A DNA stretch of 28,284 nucleotides from a virus: positions 1 through 28,284 of IMG/VR virus record IMGVR_UViG_3300048597_000291; one strand, 5' to 3'. Below are positions 12,091 to 22,333 of the stretch, one piece after another. A model generated the notes under the pieces. That model saw only the letters and a list, made by a program, of their open reading frames with translations. It made no database searches and was not told the DNA's origin. Positions within the stretch are counted from its first letter, which is position 1; every line of letters starts with the position of its first letter. Both the position numbers and the translations under genes were made by a program.

Positions 12091-12227
12091 AAAATTTCGC
12101 GTTAAAATCAATTTCTAGGGGGGGGTGCCCGTTTTTGGCATCATCACCCATCCCGGAGCTTGCGGCAAAAATGCACAGCCTTGCACACGGCTTTATGGCG
12201 AAGTCAGAGGAAAGGGGGCATCGTTGA
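12087..12227 (+). CDS. Putative 46-residue coupled ORF between terminase and portal
   Basis: ATG 12087 overlaps the terminase stop (ATGA), and its TGA at 12225-12227 overlaps a TTG at 12224 that is in frame with the portal (TTGA). This double 4-base overlap matches the rest of the operon and argues for a real, translated link. The product (begins MKNFALKSIS) is short and basic and not recognised. It contains a run of eight G at 12118-12125. It may act only to pass ribosomes from terminase to portal, or it may be part of an N-terminal portal extension reached by slippage. Confidence 0.45.
   Translation: MKNFALKSISRGGCPFLASSPIPELAAKMHSLAHGFMAKSEERGHR
12118..12125 (+). repeat. Eight-G homopolymer
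   Basis: Eight consecutive G lie inside the 46-residue ORF. One extra G, or a -1 slip, would join that ORF to the open frame that continues as the portal from 12125. It is a candidate for programmed slippage, phase variation or a sequencing error. Confidence 0.7.
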
Positions 12228-15200
12228 ATCTCACAATGGAAAATCTGGGCCTGCGGTGGCGGCAAATGCGGTTCAATCCGCTGCGCTCGCTCACCCCGGA
12301 GCGGCTGGCTTCGGCACTGGATCAATCGGCCGCCGGCTGGCTGCGCGAACAGGCGCTCATTTGCGAGGTGATTGAGCAGCGCGAGGCCATCGTGCGCAGC
12401 GTGATGACCAAGCGGCGCGCGGCGGTGGCCCGGCGGGATTGGCAGATCGTCATGCCCGACCCGGACGATCCGAAGGCGGAGGCGCACAAGGCCACCCTTG
12501 AACACTTCTACAACAACCTCACGGTGACGGATGCCGCGGACCTGAATGTGCGCACCGGATTCTCCGGCCTGCTGCGCCAGATGATGGATGCCATCATCCA
12601 GCGCTACGCGGTGCATGAGATCATCTGGAAACCCGGAGCCGACGGCCTGACCGCCGAGCTGCGCCGCGTGCCGCTCTATTTTTTCGAAAACCGCACGGGC
12701 AAGCTGCGCTTTGTGGGGCCGGAGACCCGCGCCGATGGCGTGGATCTGGAAGAGGACGGCTGGATGGTCACGGTGGCGGACGGCATCGGCGAGGCGATTT
12801 CCATCTGCTACATGTACAAGCGCATGGGGGTTCAGGACCTGCTGGCGTTCTCCGAAAAATTCTCCATCCCCGGCGTGCTGGGCCGGACCTCCGCCAAGAA
12901 GGACAGCCCGGAAGGCATCGCCATGCGCGACAGCGTGCTGGCCTACGCCTCCGAGTGGGTGGGCCTGGTCTATGGCGACGACGGCGCGATCAAGGACCCC
13001 ATCCAGGTGATCCAGACGCCCGGCGCCGCCACCCTGCCGCAGATGACCATCGCGGAATACATGGACCGCATGATCGCCACCCTGGTGCGCGGCGGCGACC
13101 TGAGCACGATTTCCCGGAAGGACTCGACCGGCAGCAATCCGCAGGAGGATGAAACGGCGGCACTGCTGGAAGACGACTGCGCGCTGGTTTCCGAAACCCT
13201 GCAAACCCAACTCGACCGGCTGGTGATCCGGATGGTGCATGGCGACGAGACGCCGGCGGCTTACATCGTCGTCAACCCGCCGGACACCACGGACGCGAGA
13301 CGCGAGATCGAGATCGACGAGGCCCTGGCCCGCCTGGGGGTGAAGCAGAAGCCGGAGGATCTGGCGGAGCGGTATGGGCGGGAATATGCGGAAGATCAGG
13401 AGTCGGAGGAAGAGGTGAACCGCAAAGCCGCAGAGGGCGCAAAGGGCCGCGAAGGGGAAGAGGAAGAGATGGCGGCGGAGAATTACAATCCGGACCAAGC
13501 ACGCAATCCTGCCGGGCAAACCGGAGGAGGCCGATGGATGGGGCTTTTGGAAGGAATCAAACCCTCACACGAATATGTCGGCGGAGACGCCTGGCAGAAG
13601 GATATGCGTTCCTCGATTCGAAAGGGTGAAGAGGAAATCGCTTACGCCGATTGGGATTATGACAAGTTTGAGAAAATCCCACGGATCAAAATGATCGAAG
13701 TCTCTCCGAATTACCAGCGCAAGGGCGTCGGTGCCCGTTTGGTGAAGGACATCATGCAAAGCATCGGTGCTGGAAAAGTTGAATGGACGTATGCAACGCC
13801 GGCCGGTGATGCGCTGCGCCAAAGTCTGATCAAATCCGGGATTGTTTTTCACGACCCTGATATGGCGGAGAATTACAATCCGGACCAGCCGCGCGTGCCG
13901 AAAGGTCTTGGCGATCCCAGCGGCGAATGGACGGACGATCCGGAGCATGCCGGCGATTGGAAGCCAAAGGGCAAAAAGGGAACAGAGTCAGGCAAGCTGA
14001 AATGGAAAAAGAGAGAAGGAACCAGGGTTATGGCACCGCTAACCTACACGGATGACTACACGATTTCCCATCGACCGGGCCGTCACAACCTGACGCATAC
14101 AACCGAAGGAAAAAACGACCACCTTGGTGAATTCACAACTGCCGATGAAGCCAAGGCGGCGGCGGAAGTACACGCGACAAAAAGCGTTGTTGAAACCCAA
14201 TCCAAACCCTACATCAAACCCGACACCGCCAAGCTGCTTGGGGAATTTGGAGGGGTCAATATGCCGGGTGTCGGGACATTACAATTGACCCAGCAAGGTG
14301 AGATGTGGGTAGGAAGCATCGACGGCAAACCGGAGCTGGCATTCAAAAAGAAGGATGACACGGTGACAAGTCTTGTCACTCTGGCGGAATACCGGAAGTC
14401 CCAAACCAAAACGCTCCGCAAACCCGCCGCCAACGAAGCGCAGTCCTCAGATTTAGCCCAGCGGCTAACAGGGGCTTTATCCGCGGATCTGCAACCGCTC
14501 GGCGAGGCGCTTGCAGGGGCTTTGCAGGCGGGCGACATGCCGGCGTTCCAGGCGGCGCTCAAGAAGATCTCGAAACGGATGCCGGAGTTTCTGGAAAGCC
14601 CGGCAATGGAAGACCTGATGGCCAGCGAATTTGTGAAAGCACTCACCCAAGACGAAACCGAGATGGCGGAGAATTATAATCCGGACCAGGCGCGGGCACC
14701 GAAGGGTAGCCCTGATGGAGGGAAGTGGACGGCGGGAGGAGATGGCGGCAATCAAACAAAGGAAGCCAGTGAATCACCAACTTTGTTGGAAGCCAACGGA
14801 ACACGAAATCCTGAATACGTAGAGCCTGTAAACGAAATTTATCCCGGACGGGAGGCCGATGTTGATGAGATGGCGGAAGACATGAGGAAAAACGGATGGA
14901 CCGGCCGCCCGATTGGTGTCGTGGGAGATAATGCCATTACAGGCAGTCATCGGATCTTCGCCGCCAGAAAAGCAGGGCTTGAAGAGATTCCCGTAATTGA
15001 GATTGATGAAGAAACAGCGGATCAATTTAACGAGTGGTTTACAACTACCGAGGAATCGACCTGGGGCATTGATTATTCCCATTGGGCAACTCAAGACGAC
15101 GAGTCAAAACTTGCTGACATCAGCAAAGCACTGAAAAGCGGCATCGAAGGTTTGGCGGATATGGAAGCACTGCTTCGTGCGGAAGTCGCCAGTAATAATG

Positions 15201-15280
15201 TGGGTAAAGACTTCGTGGGTTTCAAAGGACAAATCGCATACACCCCAACAGGTATTTTTTCAGCCAAGCGGAATCAATGA
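12224..15280 (+). CDS. DUF935 portal protein carrying GNAT-like and ParB-like cargo domains
   Basis: 1018 residues; Mu gp29-type portals have about 500. Residues 1-410 are the DUF935 portal core (GLRWRQMRFNPLRSLTPERLASAL..., KRMGVQDLLAFSEKFSIPGVLGR). From 416 come three linkers of type ENYNPDQ (416, 547, 814). Between the first two lies a GNAT-like acetyltransferase fold with the acetyl-CoA loop YQRKGVGARL (497-506). Between the second and third lie an unrecognised segment (about 575-735) and a helical tail (about 741-811) resembling the usual DUF935 C-terminus. After the third comes a ParB-like domain (866-930) with ITGSHRIFAARKAGLEEIPV. TTG 12224 is chosen because it overlaps the previous ORF and follows AGAGGAAAGGGGG; ATG 12236 is the alternative. 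Cargo G+C is lower than that of the core. Confidence 0.85.
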   Translation: MNLTMENLGLRWRQMRFNPLRSLTPERLASALDQSAAGWLREQALICEVIEQREAIVRSVMTKRRAAVARRDWQIVMPDPDDPKAEAHKATLEHFYNNLTVTDAADLNVRTGFSGLLRQMMDAIIQRYAVHEIIWKPGADGLTAELRRVPLYFFENRTGKLRFVGPETRADGVDLEEDGWMVTVADGIGEAISICYMYKRMGVQDLLAFSEKFSIPGVLGRTSAKKDSPEGIAMRDSVLAYASEWVGLVYGDDGAIKDPIQVIQTPGAATLPQMTIAEYMDRMIATLVRGGDLSTISRKDSTGSNPQEDETAALLEDDCALVSETLQTQLDRLVIRMVHGDETPAAYIVVNPPDTTDARREIEIDEALARLGVKQKPEDLAERYGREYAEDQESEEEVNRKAAEGAKGREGEEEEMAAENYNPDQARNPAGQTGGGRWMGLLEGIKPSHEYVGGDAWQKDMRSSIRKGEEEIAYADWDYDKFEKIPRIKMIEVSPNYQRKGVGARLVKDIMQSIGAGKVEWTYATPAGDALRQSLIKSGIVFHDPDMAENYNPDQPRVPKGLGDPSGEWTDDPEHAGDWKPKGKKGTESGKLKWKKREGTRVMAPLTYTDDYTISHRPGRHNLTHTTEGKNDHLGEFTTADEAKAAAEVHATKSVVETQSKPYIKPDTAKLLGEFGGVNMPGVGTLQLTQQGEMWVGSIDGKPELAFKKKDDTVTSLVTLAEYRKSQTKTLRKPAANEAQSSDLAQRLTGALSADLQPLGEALAGALQAGDMPAFQAALKKISKRMPEFLESPAMEDLMASEFVKALTQDETEMAENYNPDQARAPKGSPDGGKWTAGGDGGNQTKEASESPTLLEANGTRNPEYVEPVNEIYPGREADVDEMAEDMRKNGWTGRPIGVVGDNAITGSHRIFAARKAGLEEIPVIEIDEETADQFNEWFTTTEESTWGIDYSHWATQDDESKLADISKALKSGIEGLADMEALLRAEVASNNVGKDFVGFKGQIAYTPTGIFSAKRNQ
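13474..13497 (+). repeat. Portal linker repeat, copy 1
   Basis: The 24 bases beginning GGCGGAGAATTACAATCC and ending GGACCA code for AENYNPDQ. They are identical to the copy at 13864 and one base different from that at 14665, while the flanking sequence differs. It marks the boundary between the portal core and the GNAT-like module. Confidence 0.85.
13864..13887 (+). repeat. Portal linker repeat, copy 2
   Basis: All 24 bases match copy 1. The protein continues PRVPKGLGDPSGEWTDD, a fuller form of the 'NPDQPR.p.G.WT' linker known from phage head proteins and polyvalent proteins. It separates the GNAT-like module from the unrecognised segment. Confidence 0.85.
14665..14688 (+). repeat. Portal linker repeat, copy 3
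   Basis: 23 of 24 bases match copies 1 and 2; the single change (TAC to TAT) is silent. The protein continues ARAPKGSPDGGKWTAGG. It separates the portal C-terminal helices from the ParB-like module. Confidence 0.85.
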
Positions 15281-15510
15281 AGCAACTCGGACATTACATT
15301 CAAAGCGGCCGTTGTGGGCATGCGACCTTGCTCCCAACCTTCGACGGTGCGGGGAGAAACTCCGCACGCATCGGCGAGGGCTTGTACGGACAGGCCGGTC
15401 TTGTCGCGGATGGCCTTGATGCCGGGAGCGTAATCCATGACTTGGCCGTGATCGTCCAGAATGACGGGCTGGCCGTAGGAAGAAGCGCTGTGATCTGTGG
15501 TGACTTTCAT
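15274..15510 (-). CDS. Solo XRE-type HTH regulator (moron)
   Basis: 78 residues on the strand opposite to all late genes. The first 30 residues are a short leader (SSYGQPVILDDHGQVMDYAPG). Residues about 31-78 are an XRE/Cro-type HTH: IKAIRDKTGLSVQALADACGVSPRTVEGWEQGRMPTTAALNVMSELL, with the recognition helix SPRTVEGWEQG as in HigA-like antitoxins and short-chain regulators. It ends 7 bases inside the portal gene's 3' end, tail to tail. It has its own promoter with a dyad operator at 15555-15583, so autoregulation is likely. No toxin partner gene lies beside it. It is probably expressed from the prophage; its target is unknown. Confidence 0.75.
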   Translation of the reverse strand: MKVTTDHSASSYGQPVILDDHGQVMDYAPGIKAIRDKTGLSVQALADACGVSPRTVEGWEQGRMPTTAALNVMSELLH

Positions 15511-15601: not shown

Positions 15602-16816
15602 ATGAACACAGACACCATCCTCGCCAACGCCGCCGATGGCGGATCGCCATTCGCCATCCTGCAACCGGACGGTTTTCTCGTGCCCTTCGGCGAGTTTCCG
15701 CACAAGCAGGGCCTGCAACTCTTCGACCGCGCGGCGGCGGAGGAGATCGTGAAGGCGCACAACTCGGCGCTGTCCAAGCTCACGCGGCTGGTGACGGGCG
15801 GCTCGTATCCGGTCTATGTGGGGCATCCGGACCTCCCCGGCAGCAAGGACACGGACAAGCGGGCTTACGGTTGGATCGAGAACATGCGGGTGACGGATGA
15901 GGGATTGCACCTCTCCGCCAAGTGGAGCGACGCCGGCCGCGAGCTGGTGGAGAACGCGCACTTCAAATTCTACTCGCCGCTCTGGTGGACCAGGAAGGTC
16001 AAGGGCGGCATCCGGCCCATCGCGCTCAAAAGCATGGGCCTGACCAACGATCCGAATATCCCCGTACCGGCGCTGGCGAATGAGGCGGAAGGGGAAGAAG
16101 TGATCAGTGATCAGTCATCAGTGATCAGTGAAGAATCACAGAGCGAAGACGAAACCAAAGAACCAATCGAAAACATGAAACCAGAAATCCTGGCAGCCCT
16201 CGGGCTCGACGAAGGGGCCACACCCGAAAGCGTGCTGGCCAAGATCACGGAGATCCAGGCGGCGGCGAATGAAGCCGAGGCCCGCATCTCCGAATGGCAA
16301 ACCGCAGTGGCAAACGCCAACGCCGAAATCGCGCGGTTTGAAACCGAACTGGCCGCCGCCAACCAATCCGCCAGCGAGGCCACCGCCGCCCTGGCCGCCG
16401 CCAATGAAAAGGTGGAGGAAATCGAAGCCAACCTCGCCATCGCCGCCAATGCCGCGGTGCAGGCGGCGGTGACGGCCGGCCGGATCACCCCGGCGGAGGC
16501 GGAAGCCAAGGCCAGCGAGATCCTCGCGGCGAATGACTTCGATGTGGCGCTCAAGGAACTCGCCAAAGCCCCGGCCAGGTTCAAGACCGCCAGCACCACC
16601 GGCGACCTAGGCGAGGCCAAGAGCCGCCTGGTCGTGGCCGCCAATGACGAGAGCGCGGCCAAGCGCAACGAGCGCGCGGTGCTGGTGGCCAACGAATACG
16701 CCAACACCAACCCCGCCCTGAGCGAGGGCGAGCGCAAGCGCATCGCCTGGCAGCGGGCACAGAAGAAGCACCCCGAACTCTTCGCCAAGAAAGACTCTTC
16801 CGGATCGGCCGCGTGA
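15602..16816 (+). CDS. Mu I-type head maturation protease with scaffold region
   Basis: 404 residues from ATG 15602. Residues 1-160 match the Mu I-protein protease: SYPVYVGHPDLPGS (68-81), KRAYGWIENMRVTDEGLHLSAKW (86-108), FKFYSPLWWT (121-130) and LTNDPNIPVPAL (147-158). Residues 192-404 are Ala/Glu-rich and helical, forming an internal scaffold with a long coiled coil (220-300) and the family's 'AGRITPAEAEAKASEIL' block. In Mu an in-frame internal start makes the free scaffold Z; Met192 (ATG 16175) is the candidate here, although no ribosome site is visible. The linker before it (165-182) is encoded by a GTGATCA heptamer array. Confidence 0.85.
   Translation: MNTDTILANAADGGSPFAILQPDGFLVPFGEFPHKQGLQLFDRAAAEEIVKAHNSALSKLTRLVTGGSYPVYVGHPDLPGSKDTDKRAYGWIENMRVTDEGLHLSAKWSDAGRELVENAHFKFYSPLWWTRKVKGGIRPIALKSMGLTNDPNIPVPALANEAEGEEVISDQSSVISEESQSEDETKEPIENMKPEILAALGLDEGATPESVLAKITEIQAAANEAEARISEWQTAVANANAEIARFETELAAANQSASEATAALAAANEKVEEIEANLAIAANAAVQAAVTAGRITPAEAEAKASEILAANDFDVALKELAKAPARFKTASTTGDLGEAKSRLVVAANDESAAKRNERAVLVANEYANTNPALSEGERKRIAWQRAQKKHPELFAKKDSSGSAA
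16100..16134 (+). repeat. GTGATCA heptamer tandem repeat in the protease gene
   Basis: Units GTGATCA, GTGATCA, GTCATCA, GTGATCA and then the degenerate GTGAAGA run head to tail. They code for the serine-rich linker VISDQSSVISEE between the protease and scaffold domains. The array is related to that at 5109-5132 and sits at a tolerant linker. Confidence 0.75.
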
Positions 16817-17381: not shown

Positions 17382-18398
17382 ATGAACAAATTCCAATCAC
17401 TGGCAGGCAACACCGCCGAACTCAACGACCACTCGAAAGTCTTCGCCGGCTACAATCCGGACGGCCCGAGCGGTATCATCATGGCGGCCAACGACGCCAA
17501 CTTCGACCAGACCCACCTCTCCGAACCGCTCACCGAGTATCTCGTGGACGTGCCGGATGCCGAGGGCCTGGACACCCTGATCGAGGCCGCCTTCCCGTCC
17601 GTGCCCGTGGGCCGGAGTTTCTCCTATCGCGTCCATGACGAGAAGGAGAGCTTCCAAGCCGCGATCAATGACGAGGACATCCGCGAGATCGGCGGCGACT
17701 TCGCGCAGATCCGCCGCACCGGCACGCAGGCCGACGGACGCACCGATAACAAGGGCCTCGTCATGATCCTGGACAACGACCAGGGCGGTGAGGATGCCGC
17801 GGTGCAGCAACGCGCCGTGGCCAACCTCCGCAACCGCCTGCTCCGCACGGAACTCTACCGCGGCGAGGCACTGCTCGAAGCCAACGACACGGCCACCACT
17901 CCGAACTGGGGCGGCAGCAATGCCAGCGCCGATCCGGATGGCAACGTGTTCGAGGCCATCGATCTCTCGGGCGACGCCCGCGGCATCGATGCGAACATCG
18001 TGCTCTTCGGCGGCGGCGCATGGACCAAGCGTTTCCTGAGCCTCGGCCTCGGCAGCAATGCCGCGCGCCATCAGACGCGCAACCTGACGCCCGACCAACT
18101 CCGCGACCTTCTCGGCGTGGAGGCGGTGCTCAAGAGCAAGTTCCGGTATCAATCCAGCGGCACTGCCAAGAGCAAGCTGGTGGCCGACAAGGTGTATGTC
18201 TATTACGCCAAGCGCGGCGCGATGGCGGACGATCCGTCCAACATCAAGCGTTTCGTCACCAGCGTTCCCGGTGGCGGCCTGCTGCGCGTCTACATCGAGC
18301 CGCGCCTCAAGCGCACGGTGATCGCCGTGGAGCATTATAGCCGCCTGGTGCTGACCAGCTCGCTGGGCATCCGCAAGATCGCCCCGACCTTCAGTTGA
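17382..18398 (+). CDS. Major capsid protein (Mu T-like position)
   Basis: 338 residues from ATG 17382. It follows the protease/scaffold and cement genes, the usual place for the major head subunit (gene T, gp34, in Mu). Readable features of an HK97-type shell protein are an N-terminal arm, an extended E-loop-like region (FPSVPVGRSFSYRVHDEKESFQAAINDEDIREIGGDF, residues 68-104), the spine-like helix DAAVQQRAVANLRNRLLRTELYRGEALLEAN, and a beta-rich C-terminal P domain (YVYYAKRGAMADDP...LLRVYIEPRLKRTVIAVEHYSRLVL). A strong perfect hairpin follows the gene. The start has no Shine-Dalgarno sequence, notable for what should be the most strongly made protein. Confidence 0.75.
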   Translation: MNKFQSLAGNTAELNDHSKVFAGYNPDGPSGIIMAANDANFDQTHLSEPLTEYLVDVPDAEGLDTLIEAAFPSVPVGRSFSYRVHDEKESFQAAINDEDIREIGGDFAQIRRTGTQADGRTDNKGLVMILDNDQGGEDAAVQQRAVANLRNRLLRTELYRGEALLEANDTATTPNWGGSNASADPDGNVFEAIDLSGDARGIDANIVLFGGGAWTKRFLSLGLGSNAARHQTRNLTPDQLRDLLGVEAVLKSKFRYQSSGTAKSKLVADKVYVYYAKRGAMADDPSNIKRFVTSVPGGGLLRVYIEPRLKRTVIAVEHYSRLVLTSSLGIRKIAPTFS

Positions 18399-19348: not shown

Positions 19349-20382
19349 AGGAAGACCTGCCAGCCGCCGCGCAAGTGGCCATGATCCGCGACCTGCTCCC
19401 CACCACGCTGGGCAGCCGCGAGGTCCGCGAAGCGATTGCGGCGGACATCCGCGCCCGGTCGGTGTTTTCGGCGCGGGTGGGAAATGCGGATGTGCTCTCC
19501 GAGATCAAGCGGCAGGTGGATGCGCTGGCCGCCGGGGAAACGAATCTGGCATCCGCGCGGCTGGCGCTGCGGGACGTGCTCAAGGCGGTAGGCTATACGC
19601 CGGAGGGCGGTTTCCCGGAAGACATGGGAGACGTGCCACCGGCCAAGGAAGGCGGCCTGCAAGACATCTCTTCCACGCGGCGGCTGGAGTTCATCCTCAA
19701 CACCCAGACGGCGCTGGTGCGCGGGCGCGGCCAGCAGATGCGCGGCATGCAGCCAGCCCGGCTGCGGCAATTCCCGGCTTGGGAGTTGGATCGGTATTTC
19801 GAAAAGGCGGAACCGCGGTGGTGGGGCGGCAAGCACCTCGGCACCGCGCCAGTGAAAGAGAAGCGTGTGGACCCGCGGCCCCGGTGGATCATCGCCGGCG
19901 GACAACCTACCGAGGATGGCCGCCTGATCGCGCTCAAGGGTGATCCGATCTGGGGAGAACTTGGCTCAAGCGGGAATTTCGACGACGCGCTCGATGTGGA
20001 TTTTCCGCCGTTTGCCTTCAACTCCGGCATGCGATGGATCGAGGTTTCACGCGGCGAGTGCCTGGCACTCGGCATCAAGGGACCGGATGGCGAAAGCATC
20101 GACGAATGGCAGGCGAGGGACCACCCGCTGCTGGTGGACACGCAGAGCGGCATCCCTGCGCCGCAGGCATCGGTGAAGAATCTGGACCCGGAAATCCGCA
20201 AGGCATTCGAAAAATCCGCCGGCGCGGTCATCGTGGAAGACACGGCGACCACCAATGGCAATGCGGATGAGATCCGCGCCAAGCTGGAAGAACGCCGCGC
20301 GGCACGGGAGGCACGCAAGGCGGAACGGCTGGCGAGATCCATCGAATCCCGGCAACTCGAATATGAAGGGAGGGGCGCATGA
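19345..20382 (+). CDS. Minor head protein, Mu gp30 (F)-like, displaced
   Basis: 345 residues from TTG 19345, which overlaps the previous stop (TTGA); ATG 19381 is an alternative start. Residues about 110-140 (LQDISSTRRLEFILNTQTALVRGRGQQMRGMQ) resemble the central helix of Mu F/SPP1 gp7-type head morphogenesis proteins ('yrtn.q.a...gr...m'). Further on are PRWIIAGGQPTEDGRLIALKGDPIWGEL and FPPFAFNSGMRWIEVSRGECLALG, a 'yPPfaFnSGm.W' block seen in such minor head proteins. In Mu this gene follows the portal directly; here it comes after capsid and connector. The C-terminus is a charged helix with repeated AR.A..RKAERLAR. Confidence 0.65.
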   Translation: MKEDLPAAAQVAMIRDLLPTTLGSREVREAIAADIRARSVFSARVGNADVLSEIKRQVDALAAGETNLASARLALRDVLKAVGYTPEGGFPEDMGDVPPAKEGGLQDISSTRRLEFILNTQTALVRGRGQQMRGMQPARLRQFPAWELDRYFEKAEPRWWGGKHLGTAPVKEKRVDPRPRWIIAGGQPTEDGRLIALKGDPIWGELGSSGNFDDALDVDFPPFAFNSGMRWIEVSRGECLALGIKGPDGESIDEWQARDHPLLVDTQSGIPAPQASVKNLDPEIRKAFEKSAGAVIVEDTATTNGNADEIRAKLEERRAAREARKAERLARSIESRQLEYEGRGA

Positions 20383-20972
20383 GCCTGCGGGTGGACATCG
20401 ACGTGTCCGGACTGGACCAGGCGGACCTCGCCGCACTCGGGGCGAGGATGCGCGACGGCGCGGGGCTGCATGCGCGAATGGCCGGCGATGCCGAGATCTT
20501 TGTGAAACAACGCGGCAAGGTGACGGCGGCGGGAGAACACCGCAGCGCATCGCGCCTGGGCGCGCAACCCACCGGCCACTTGTCGGACGCTTACGAGGCC
20601 ATCGAAGGCACCAGCACGGAAGCCAGCGCCAGCCTGTTGGTGCCCCGTGCCAGCCGCCTCCGCGCCGCCTTCGGCCGCTATGTGATCACGCCGAAAAACG
20701 GCAGCAAATTCCTCACCATCCCGGTGGCGCGCGAGGCCTATGGCAAGCGCGCCGGCGAGTTTGATGATCTGTTTTTCATGCGGGCAGGGCCGAAGAAAAC
20801 CCCGCTGCTGGCGCGGGACGTCGGGCGGGGATTCCAGACCATGTATCTGCTCACGCCCAAGGCCGACATCCCGGAAGATAAGAACCTCATCCCATTCGAT
20901 GACCTTGCCGAAGAGGCGCGCGACAGCGCCGAGGCATTCATCGACGAAGCCATCGCCGCCACCTTGTCATGA
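20379..20972 (+). CDS. Virion morphogenesis protein, Mu gp31 (G)-like
   Basis: 197 residues. The N-terminus (VDIDVSGLDQADLAALGARMRDGAGLHARMAGDAEIFVKQRG) and the middle (GAQPTGHLSDAYEAIEGTSTEASASLLVP) follow the plan of the Mu G / P2 S tail-completion and virion-morphogenesis family: an 'a.a..i..r' helix, then 'tg.L..s......ss..a.v.v', then a late ARDVGRGFQTMYLL. As in Mu it directly follows the gp30-like gene (4-base overlap), which strengthens the call. It probably joins head and tail. Similarity is weak and read by eye. Confidence 0.5.
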   Translation: MSLRVDIDVSGLDQADLAALGARMRDGAGLHARMAGDAEIFVKQRGKVTAAGEHRSASRLGAQPTGHLSDAYEAIEGTSTEASASLLVPRASRLRAAFGRYVITPKNGSKFLTIPVAREAYGKRAGEFDDLFFMRAGPKKTPLLARDVGRGFQTMYLLTPKADIPEDKNLIPFDDLAEEARDSAEAFIDEAIAATLS

Positions 20973-22333
20973 GTGATCGTTTTGACATGCTCGAGATTTT
21001 GCAGGCCGACGTGACGGCGCTCCTGAAAAACGTCCCGGCCCTGGCGGATGCCGTGATCCTCGCGGACAACGAGGGAGACATCGAAAGCAAGGTGGTGCGC
21101 AATCTCGCGCCGCTCACGGGCAGCAAGCGGGGATTGGCCGTGGTGGTGCTTTTGCCCGAGATCACCGAGACCGAAACCAATCTCCCCGGCCCTCCGGTGA
21201 CGGTGGAGATCGAGATCCAAACCATCGAGGCAGTGACCATCAACCGCCAAGCCAACGCAGGCACCGGCTTGCGGAGTTCGCAGGCCGCGATGATCGTCCT
21301 CAATGCCCTCCACCATCACAACACCGGCACATGCGGCATCTACGCGGAGAACGACCCGGTCACGCCGGTGAAGGTGAAGCCCGGATACGTCTCTCACGCG
21401 GTGAAACTGAAAGTTGCAGGCGGCATGCAAGGCCCCGGCAAGCCCGCCCAAGTGACGGCCGAGGAGACGGATGACGTCGTCTATTTGTCATGTGCCACGG
21501 CAGGGGCCTCGATCTGGTACACCATCGACGGCTCCTACCCGACGCCGGCCAACGGCACGGAGTATGTGGGGGGCATTTCCGACCTGACGCCGGGCACCGT
21601 GCTGCGTGCCGCCGCGTACAAGACCGGGCTCAATCCCGGCGATGTCACCGAGATCCTCATCGTGGCTCCGGCCACCCAGCCACTGCCCACTGGCGGGCTT
21701 TACGATGGCTTGCTGGCCTACTACAAAATGGACGACGCCCCCGCACCCAGCGGCCCATCGATCCAAACCGACAGCCACGGGACCAATGACCTCACGGGCA
21801 ACAACAGCATCGCCATCCTCAACATTGCCGGGGTTGGCGGCGGGATCGCGGTTGCCGGAAATGCGGAGGCCTATCTCGCGGGCAACTCGCCCATCAGCGA
21901 TATTTCCGGCCCATGGACGATTGTGGGGTGGTTCAAGACCAGTGACAGCAGCCCCTCCGGCATAAGCAACATTCTCGCCGGCGGTTCGGCATACCGCATC
22001 GGAATTTTCGATGGCTTTTTCAGTCTGATTCTGGGAGATGGCGCCTTAACCGGCGAGTTCGGCGCCAACGTCACCGAAGGCGCTTGGCACCAACTGGCCA
22101 TCGTCAATGATGCCGGCGGCTACCAGCAGATCTACGTCGACGGGACAGACGTCTATTTGGCATCCGAACCAACCTTGCTGGAGGGTGGTGGCGGACTGAC
22201 CATTTTCGGCGACCTCGATTGCGGGGTGGACGAGCTGGGTTTCTGGGGCCGCGCGCTGAGCGGCCCCGAGATTGCCCAGCTTTACAACAGCGGGCAGTCC
22301 CTGCCTTACGAGGATTTCAACGCGCCAGGATAA
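20969..22333 (+). CDS. Tail terminator-like protein with chitobiase-like and LamG-like domains
   Basis: 454 residues. Residues 1-150 look like a tail terminator (Mu gp37 position): helix MLEILQADVTALLKNVP, then RGLAVVVLLPEITETETNLPGPPVTVEIEIQTIEAVTINR and a helix with ALHHHNTG. Residues about 155-235 are a chitobiase-type beta sandwich (VYLSCATAGASIWYTIDGSYPTPANG, TVLRAAAYKTGLNPGDV). Residues about 245-450 are a concanavalin A/LamG-type domain (GLLAYYKMDDAP, GPWTIVGWFKTSD, WHQLAIVNDAGGYQQIYVDGT, GVDELGFWGRALSGPEIAQLYNSG). The last two domain types often bind carbohydrate, so this protein may display a surface-binding module at the head-tail joint. Confidence 0.7.
   Translation: MSDRFDMLEILQADVTALLKNVPALADAVILADNEGDIESKVVRNLAPLTGSKRGLAVVVLLPEITETETNLPGPPVTVEIEIQTIEAVTINRQANAGTGLRSSQAAMIVLNALHHHNTGTCGIYAENDPVTPVKVKPGYVSHAVKLKVAGGMQGPGKPAQVTAEETDDVVYLSCATAGASIWYTIDGSYPTPANGTEYVGGISDLTPGTVLRAAAYKTGLNPGDVTEILIVAPATQPLPTGGLYDGLLAYYKMDDAPAPSGPSIQTDSHGTNDLTGNNSIAILNIAGVGGGIAVAGNAEAYLAGNSPISDISGPWTIVGWFKTSDSSPSGISNILAGGSAYRIGIFDGFFSLILGDGALTGEFGANVTEGAWHQLAIVNDAGGYQQIYVDGTDVYLASEPTLLEGGGGLTIFGDLDCGVDELGFWGRALSGPEIAQLYNSGQSLPYEDFNAPG

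Follow-up and report, generated by a model that had tools for sequence, protein, structure and literature searches.

Effector domains attached to phage head proteins have been described before: in the MuF polymorphic toxins they are carried on MuF head proteins (PMC5576092; Jamet et al., which concerns MuF only), and work on polyvalent proteins (PMC5512222) mentions portal domains to which PBECR, 2H and InPase domains are fused. For gp29, the portal protein of phage Mu, PMC11915804 reports that the last 124 residues are absent from the virion as seen by cryo-EM, and ascribes the loss to cleavage by protease I, a deduction from the missing density and from Grimaud 1996, which is cited there. 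A preliminary description of the locus studied here had proposed that a DUF935 portal was loaded with GNAT-like and ParB-like cargo, and had taken this set in such a portal to be without a described case. Because effector fusions to portal or MuF proteins are known (PMC5512222), the idea of portal cargo is less unprecedented than first thought; what stands of the claim is that the exact GNAT/ParB set was not found elsewhere. None of the open-licence papers found in our searches describes a DUF935 portal that contains a GNAT or ParB module, places modules both before and after the end helices, or connects cargo with a cleaved portal propeptide and a site motif specific to a clade.

The window, by which we mean the whole 28,284-base virus record that was analysed, has a late gene order of terminase, portal, protease/scaffold, capsid protein, then neck and tail genes, with transposition genes at its left end on the (-) strand, and belongs to a Mu-like phage of Verrucomicrobia-type bacteria (Table 1; L-numbers below denote loci of relatives). 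The portal reading frame (12125-15280) is free of stops and gives 1051 aa if started at GTG 12125, TTG 12224 being another alternative start. PF06074 covers residues 81-418 of the protein (E 2e-48, 165.9 bits; curated cut-off 23.9 bits), and phmmer relates the core to two portals of solved structure, 8rka (E 7e-7) and that of Mu (gp29, 9khx, E 1e-5); with Portal_Mu above its cut-off and a place after the terminase and before the protease and capsid genes, this is a portal of the Mu type. MuF polymorphic toxins are defined by an N-terminal MuF domain, and the N-terminal part here is DUF935. A portal-MuF fusion was likewise rejected, given that the MuF-like gene of the window stands separately; such fusions are seen in L044:5833-8598 and L060:5746-8433, where distant DUF935 portals share one frame with a MuF-type domain.

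Table 1. Features of the portal region and neighbouring head genes in the window.
Feature	Position	Strand	Remark
Portal gene with cargo	12236..15280	+	open frame; 1014 aa from ATG 12236
DUF935/Portal_Mu core	12365..13378	+	PF06074
Linker 1	13469..13537	+	MAAENYNPDQARNPAGQTGGGRW
Module 1, GNAT-like acetyltransferase domain (marginal)	13538..13861	+	best-matching part 13616-13840
Linker 2	13862..13933	+	MAENYNPDQPRVPKGLGDPSGEWT
Module 2	13934..14422	+	weakly like a module on the L120 protease
PAANEAQSS, candidate site for the head protease, ahead of the end helices	14423..14449	+	motif enrichment
DUF935 C-terminal helices	14444..14647	+	~340 residues away from the core; sequence matches to relatives
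Linker 3	14663..14731	+	MAENYNPDQARAPKGSPDGGKWT
Module 3, ParB/Srx-like domain and C-terminal helices	14732..15277	+	domain about 14807-15040
Small HTH (Cro/C1-type) gene	15274-15510	-	between portal and protease
Head maturation protease and scaffold (Mu I-like)	15602..16816	+	homology to clade proteases
LANEAEG	16073-16093	+	protease/scaffold junction
Major capsid protein	17382..18398	+	variable prosegment
MAANDAN, candidate site	17481-17501	+	end of capsid-protein prosegment
MuF-like minor head protein	19381..20382	+	without cargo in the window

Beyond its core the window portal carries about 600 further residues, arranged as linker 1, GNAT-like module, linker 2, module 2, PAANEA, DUF935 end helices, linker 3 and ParB-like module. 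The end helices match the portal ends of L086, L146, L172, L209 and L007 (E 1e-15 to 2e-11), and in tblastn against other genomes residues 423-763 stand out as inserted sequence that separates the core from the helices; in relatives, the segments matching 764-880 directly adjoin 422. The architecture first proposed therefore holds: the DUF935 core is normal and followed by a module-loaded tail in a frame that is open throughout, the end helices are displaced behind the first two inserts, and cargo is both threaded into the portal and added at its end, with relatives showing exchange before as well as after the helices. Comparison with relatives had been set beforehand, next to profile searches, as a test on which this picture could fail, and the segments proved not to be common to the close relatives L087 and L086; their interpretation as ordinary DUF935 parts was rejected, as they are missing from L087 and from Mu-type relatives. 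A small separate gene in L092 and L145 (L092/L145:11273-11785) encodes a duplicate of the portal's end helices (E 4e-5) and lies about 4 kb downstream of a portal without a full tail. The small HTH gene behind the window portal was considered as a cognate antitoxin, which is unsupported, there being no homologue beside the portal in relatives; it may be a regulator of the moron type, or an antitoxin left over from a former pair.

The inserted modules differ in how well they can be assigned. Module 1 contains a QRKGVGA motif at 13715-13735, and the RKGVGA reported earlier begins at nt 13718, which is residue 499 counted from TTG 12224 and 495 from ATG 12236. In a search with this segment by itself, Acetyltransf_1 reaches 21.9 bits, just above the cut-off of 20.7; the GNAT stayed under the cut-offs in the whole-protein search, and the remaining GNAT profiles were sub-threshold for the segment too. 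The nearest relative of the segment is a GNAT within a giant polyvalent-type protein of L222 (BLASTP E 3e-10 as a single comparison; phmmer E 3.5e-5), and a low-confidence single-sequence AlphaFold model (pLDDT 50) retrieved mostly GNATs as top Foldseek matches (best E 4e-3). The profile search thus agrees with the GNAT first suggested, as a marginal prediction. A GNAT match in a Verrucomicrobiota genome was rejected, being an ordinary acetyltransferase. Module 2 gave no family match in profile searches and no match in phages or in 289 genomes; it weakly matches the L120 ORF 7386-8669 (phmmer E 0.03). For module 3, which has a G-SHR box at 14936 (ITGSHRIF), the best ParB-like PHROG is 8071 (E 5e-7), tblastn finds annotated ParB-like proteins (E 6e-8 to Virus Rctr197k), and a single BLASTP comparison gives E 7e-10 to a protein that itself carries PF02195 (E 1e-12). 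On the window segment PF02195 scores 14, below its cut-off of 26.3, and the single-sequence AlphaFold model has a pLDDT of 34. Judged from these sequence matches, support for the C-terminal ParB-like domain predicted earlier is good. The segment following it was considered as a second copy of the DUF935 helices and rejected, since it aligns within a ParB-family protein.

Three linkers of the NPDQ type separate the modules, as had been noted, and have in common the near-identical DNA AATTAYAATCCGGACCA despite free codon choice: nearly the same codons are used over MAENYNPDQ, with two AAT in each linker, although the genome prefers AAC. The inserts are joined via this repeated DNA element. Linker 3 matches the sole linker of L086 at 80% over 69 nt, with 21 nt identical; the L086 linker stands before the end helices, not after them, and is followed by different cargo. 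The inserts are foreign to judge from their GC3, which lies at 0.56 for the GNAT, 0.61 for module 2 and 0.47 for the ParB module as against 0.88 in the portal core; that of the protease and capsid genes is 0.81-0.84.

Relatives were collected by profile-guided scans, which gave 60 viral and 75 genomic loci, the latter almost all from Verrucomicrobiota with a few from Kiritimatiellota, Lentisphaerota and Fibrobacter. Single-sequence scans of viral_contigs with the portal and with the linker DNA gave no match, so that alignments were required to detect relatives; each window module was also scanned for in viral_contigs, and none was found there. The core is conserved across related portals and the tail varies: among 112 distinct portals, with tails of 4 to 611 aa, 52 have no tail, 47 the helices only and 13 carry cargo. 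The portal of Cerasicoccus is one that lacks a tail. L087, whose core is 76% identical, has no cargo, and L086 (75% identical core) has a PHROG 18666 domain at the same site. Pfam families recognised as cargo are PBECR1 (L172), PBECR2 (L007), PBECR3 (L186, L204) and ART-PolyVal (L137); the exact set of GNAT, module 2 and ParB was not found on any other portal. Sister phages with core DNA 76-85% identical can have wholly different cargo, as in the sets window/L086/L087, L137/L138 and L172/L186. Between L137 and L138 the DNA is 84.6% identical to just past the core, the cargo is unrelated, and identity returns to 82% after it. On well supported branches the cargo label switches at least seven times. 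Exchange of cargo, and insertion at two sites before and after the end helices, are evident from these sequence comparisons, and the exchangeability that had been proposed is confirmed: the close relatives L087 and L086 have no cargo or a different one, and other relatives have PBECR1/2/3, ART or others at these sites. The portal C-termini of L140 and L141 hold a domain AAKRALDWRRQFNRGGTEIGVARARDILNG...AWDLWGGDAGKAWA, preceded by PLANEK, which is likely another portal cargo.

In alignment, residue 388 of Mu gp29 falls on residue 368 of the window portal (counted from ATG), ahead of all cargo, so the cargo lies in the part that Mu discards. An L-A-N-E motif marks the scaffold, the capsid-protein prosegment and the portal tails of the clade: [AGS]N[EASDQ] occurs 197 times in the scaffold against 63 expected (3.1-fold), 50 times in the capsid-protein prosegment against 11 (4.6-fold) and 48 times in the first 70 aa of portal tails against 19 (2.5-fold). 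Portal cores and capsid bodies contain it less often than expected, control ORFs about as often as expected, and tail-less portals at chance level (4/52). Two places before the Asn, the scaffold, capsid prosegment and portal tail favour hydrophobic residues; at chance sites in the core this preference is weaker. When no motif is preset, the top scaffold tripeptide is ANE in the clade (73 vs 8) and ALN in the related B3/B23-like group (95 vs 5), in which portal tails show an excess of A[LQ]N (29 vs 5.5) and none of the other motif. Within each group, the portal tails carry the motif of that group's scaffold; the z-scores of these motifs are upper bounds, because the sequences are related and the Q of A[LQ]N was picked after the portal tails were viewed. 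An Asn lies at most 12 residues upstream in 21/21 cargo-linker matches (one counted twice; background 0.36), and in 18 of the 21 it has the form [AGSTE]N (0.16 by chance). The corresponding sites of the window are its three AEN-Y linkers, which read A-E-N-Y and are off consensus, and LLEANG just before the ParB domain. If PAANEA alone is cut, the GNAT and module 2 would remain on the portal. Together with the case of Mu, the motif statistics suggest that in this clade the portal tail is probably removed by the viral head protease.

Other head proteins could serve in the same way. Portal linker types and cargo families recur on MuF-like and protease-scaffold proteins: PBECR1 is found on the MuF-like proteins of L150 and L207 and PBECR2 on that of L110, and a GWETRR-type linker on the protease/scaffold genes of L088, L118 and L120, the L120 homologue of the protease being one in which PF10123 was detected. 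These three protease/scaffold genes (L120:7386-8669, L118:7464-8843, L088:5994-7472) have a LAN-x-GTSEGAxKGWETRR linker and extra C-terminal sequence, which in L120 resembles window module 2. A MuF-like protein in L099 (10324-12114) has a putative C-terminal metallopeptidase domain (HEIGHEVDH) missed by Pfam, and the tail-region protein at 20969-22333 of the window has an end that by eye resembles a LamG/concanavalin-like domain. The chances are about even that Verrucomicrobiota transposable phages use a protease-coded form of cargo loading, in which the removable tails of portal, MuF-like and protease-scaffold proteins would be interchangeable handles, a protease site and a stock linker would bound each cargo, release in the head would be followed by injection, and portal-tail sites would co-evolve with protease specificity (LAN-E versus A-L/Q-N in the B3/B23-like group).

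For the window itself we consider it fairly probable that the C-terminal tail of the portal is a disposable propeptide carrying exchangeable cargo, which is freed by the protease in the head and possibly ejected. Such a pathway would start from what is evident in the portal, the in-frame fusion of foreign modules via short linkers between core and end helices or after the helices, and from what comparison of sister phages makes evident, the swapping of cargo by recombination at linker sites while core and flanking genes stay. As the head is nucleated by a dodecamer of the portal, portal structure suggests that up to 12 copies of each module would be present inside the procapsid. The head maturation protease encoded beside the portal would then cut the tail at L-A-N-E-like sites and free the cargo in the head, as Mu and the motif statistics suggest, and probably cuts the scaffold and the capsid-protein prosegment likewise. 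Once released, the modules may be ejected, enter the host with the DNA and act early there, the ParB-like domain as an NTP-dependent nuclease or DNA-binding protein and the GNAT by acetylating a target of host or phage origin. By analogy with what has been proposed for polyvalent proteins (PMC5512222), it is plausible that both serve early on to counter host defences or to take over the host. A domain fused to the portal would normally remain at the vertex; if the tail is a propeptide, an effector on a vertex-bound protein could still enter the host.

The modules might instead stay attached in the head as structural or packaging parts of the portal, with the ParB-like domain for instance binding the DNA ends, and never be released. 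ParB-like domains do bind nucleotide and DNA, and two of the window modules lie upstream of the sole consensus site (PAANEAQ), as this scenario would have it; yet the closest relatives do without modules or carry unrelated ones, nuclease and ART folds make no sense as structural parts, the whole tail is missing from the Mu virion portal, and the Asn motif is present in the cargo linkers, so that we regard permanent attachment as unlikely. It is very improbable that the cargo is made also or mainly as separate proteins from internal starts, in the manner of scaffold Z inside the Mu protease gene I. An in-frame ATG does open each window linker (13469, 13862, 14663), a GAGG lies five nt upstream of the first of these, and Mu gene I itself provides the example of a nested internal start, but ribosome-site-like sequence is missing ahead of the second and third ATG, and Met is missing from the L086 linker and from all linker types of other relatives.

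We give less credence still to the tandem modules being an assembly chimera or a decaying, non-functional accretion. The frame is single and open over 1053 codons, the catalytic-type motifs (QRKGVGA, GSHR) are intact, and the same layout of linker and cargo is found in the independent 75% relative L086 and in 11 other portals, even if short near-identical repeats might mislead an assembler and the exact module set was not found elsewhere. Should the portal tail be a cleavable, cargo-bearing propeptide, metagenomes could be searched for injected effectors on portals, MuF proteins and proteases by a sequence rule that combines linker and protease-type site, and Mu-type head proteases would have a testable cut-site code. 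The observations point to a rapidly exchanged pool of effectors in phages of a little-studied bacterial phylum.

The IPs of phage T4 are encoded by separate genes and have short N-terminal targeting peptides; in the window the targeting part would be the portal itself. In how they would work, the modules resemble internal or ejection proteins, which go into the prohead, are cut by the head protease and are ejected with the DNA (SPN3US, PMC7411985). With Mu gp29 (portal H) and protease I the locus shares a homologous core and the gene order terminase, portal, protease, and differs in that the Mu tail is without cargo. Polyvalent proteins are multi-domain effector chains of phages and conjugative elements that include the GNAT and ParB superfamilies, among them DdrB-like ParB (PMC5512222); the window protein likewise holds at least two effector domains (GNAT and ParB-like) in one chain, encoded with virion genes, and the nearest relative found for its GNAT is in such a protein (L222). 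The window chain additionally has a portal core and so belongs to the essential portal, not to a stand-alone protein, and its ParB module matches ParB-partition-like families, matches that do not show likeness to DdrB. Closest in design are the MuF and portal-effector fusions, also of temperate phages, with exchangeable effectors on head proteins by the portal that are proposed to be packaged and delivered (PMC5576092; PMC5512222). The locus described here differs from these in that its main carrier is the DUF935 portal tail, cleavable as we propose, in having up to three modules per chain, including GNAT and ParB, and in that insertion occurs both before and after the end helices and is accompanied by a candidate code of protease sites.
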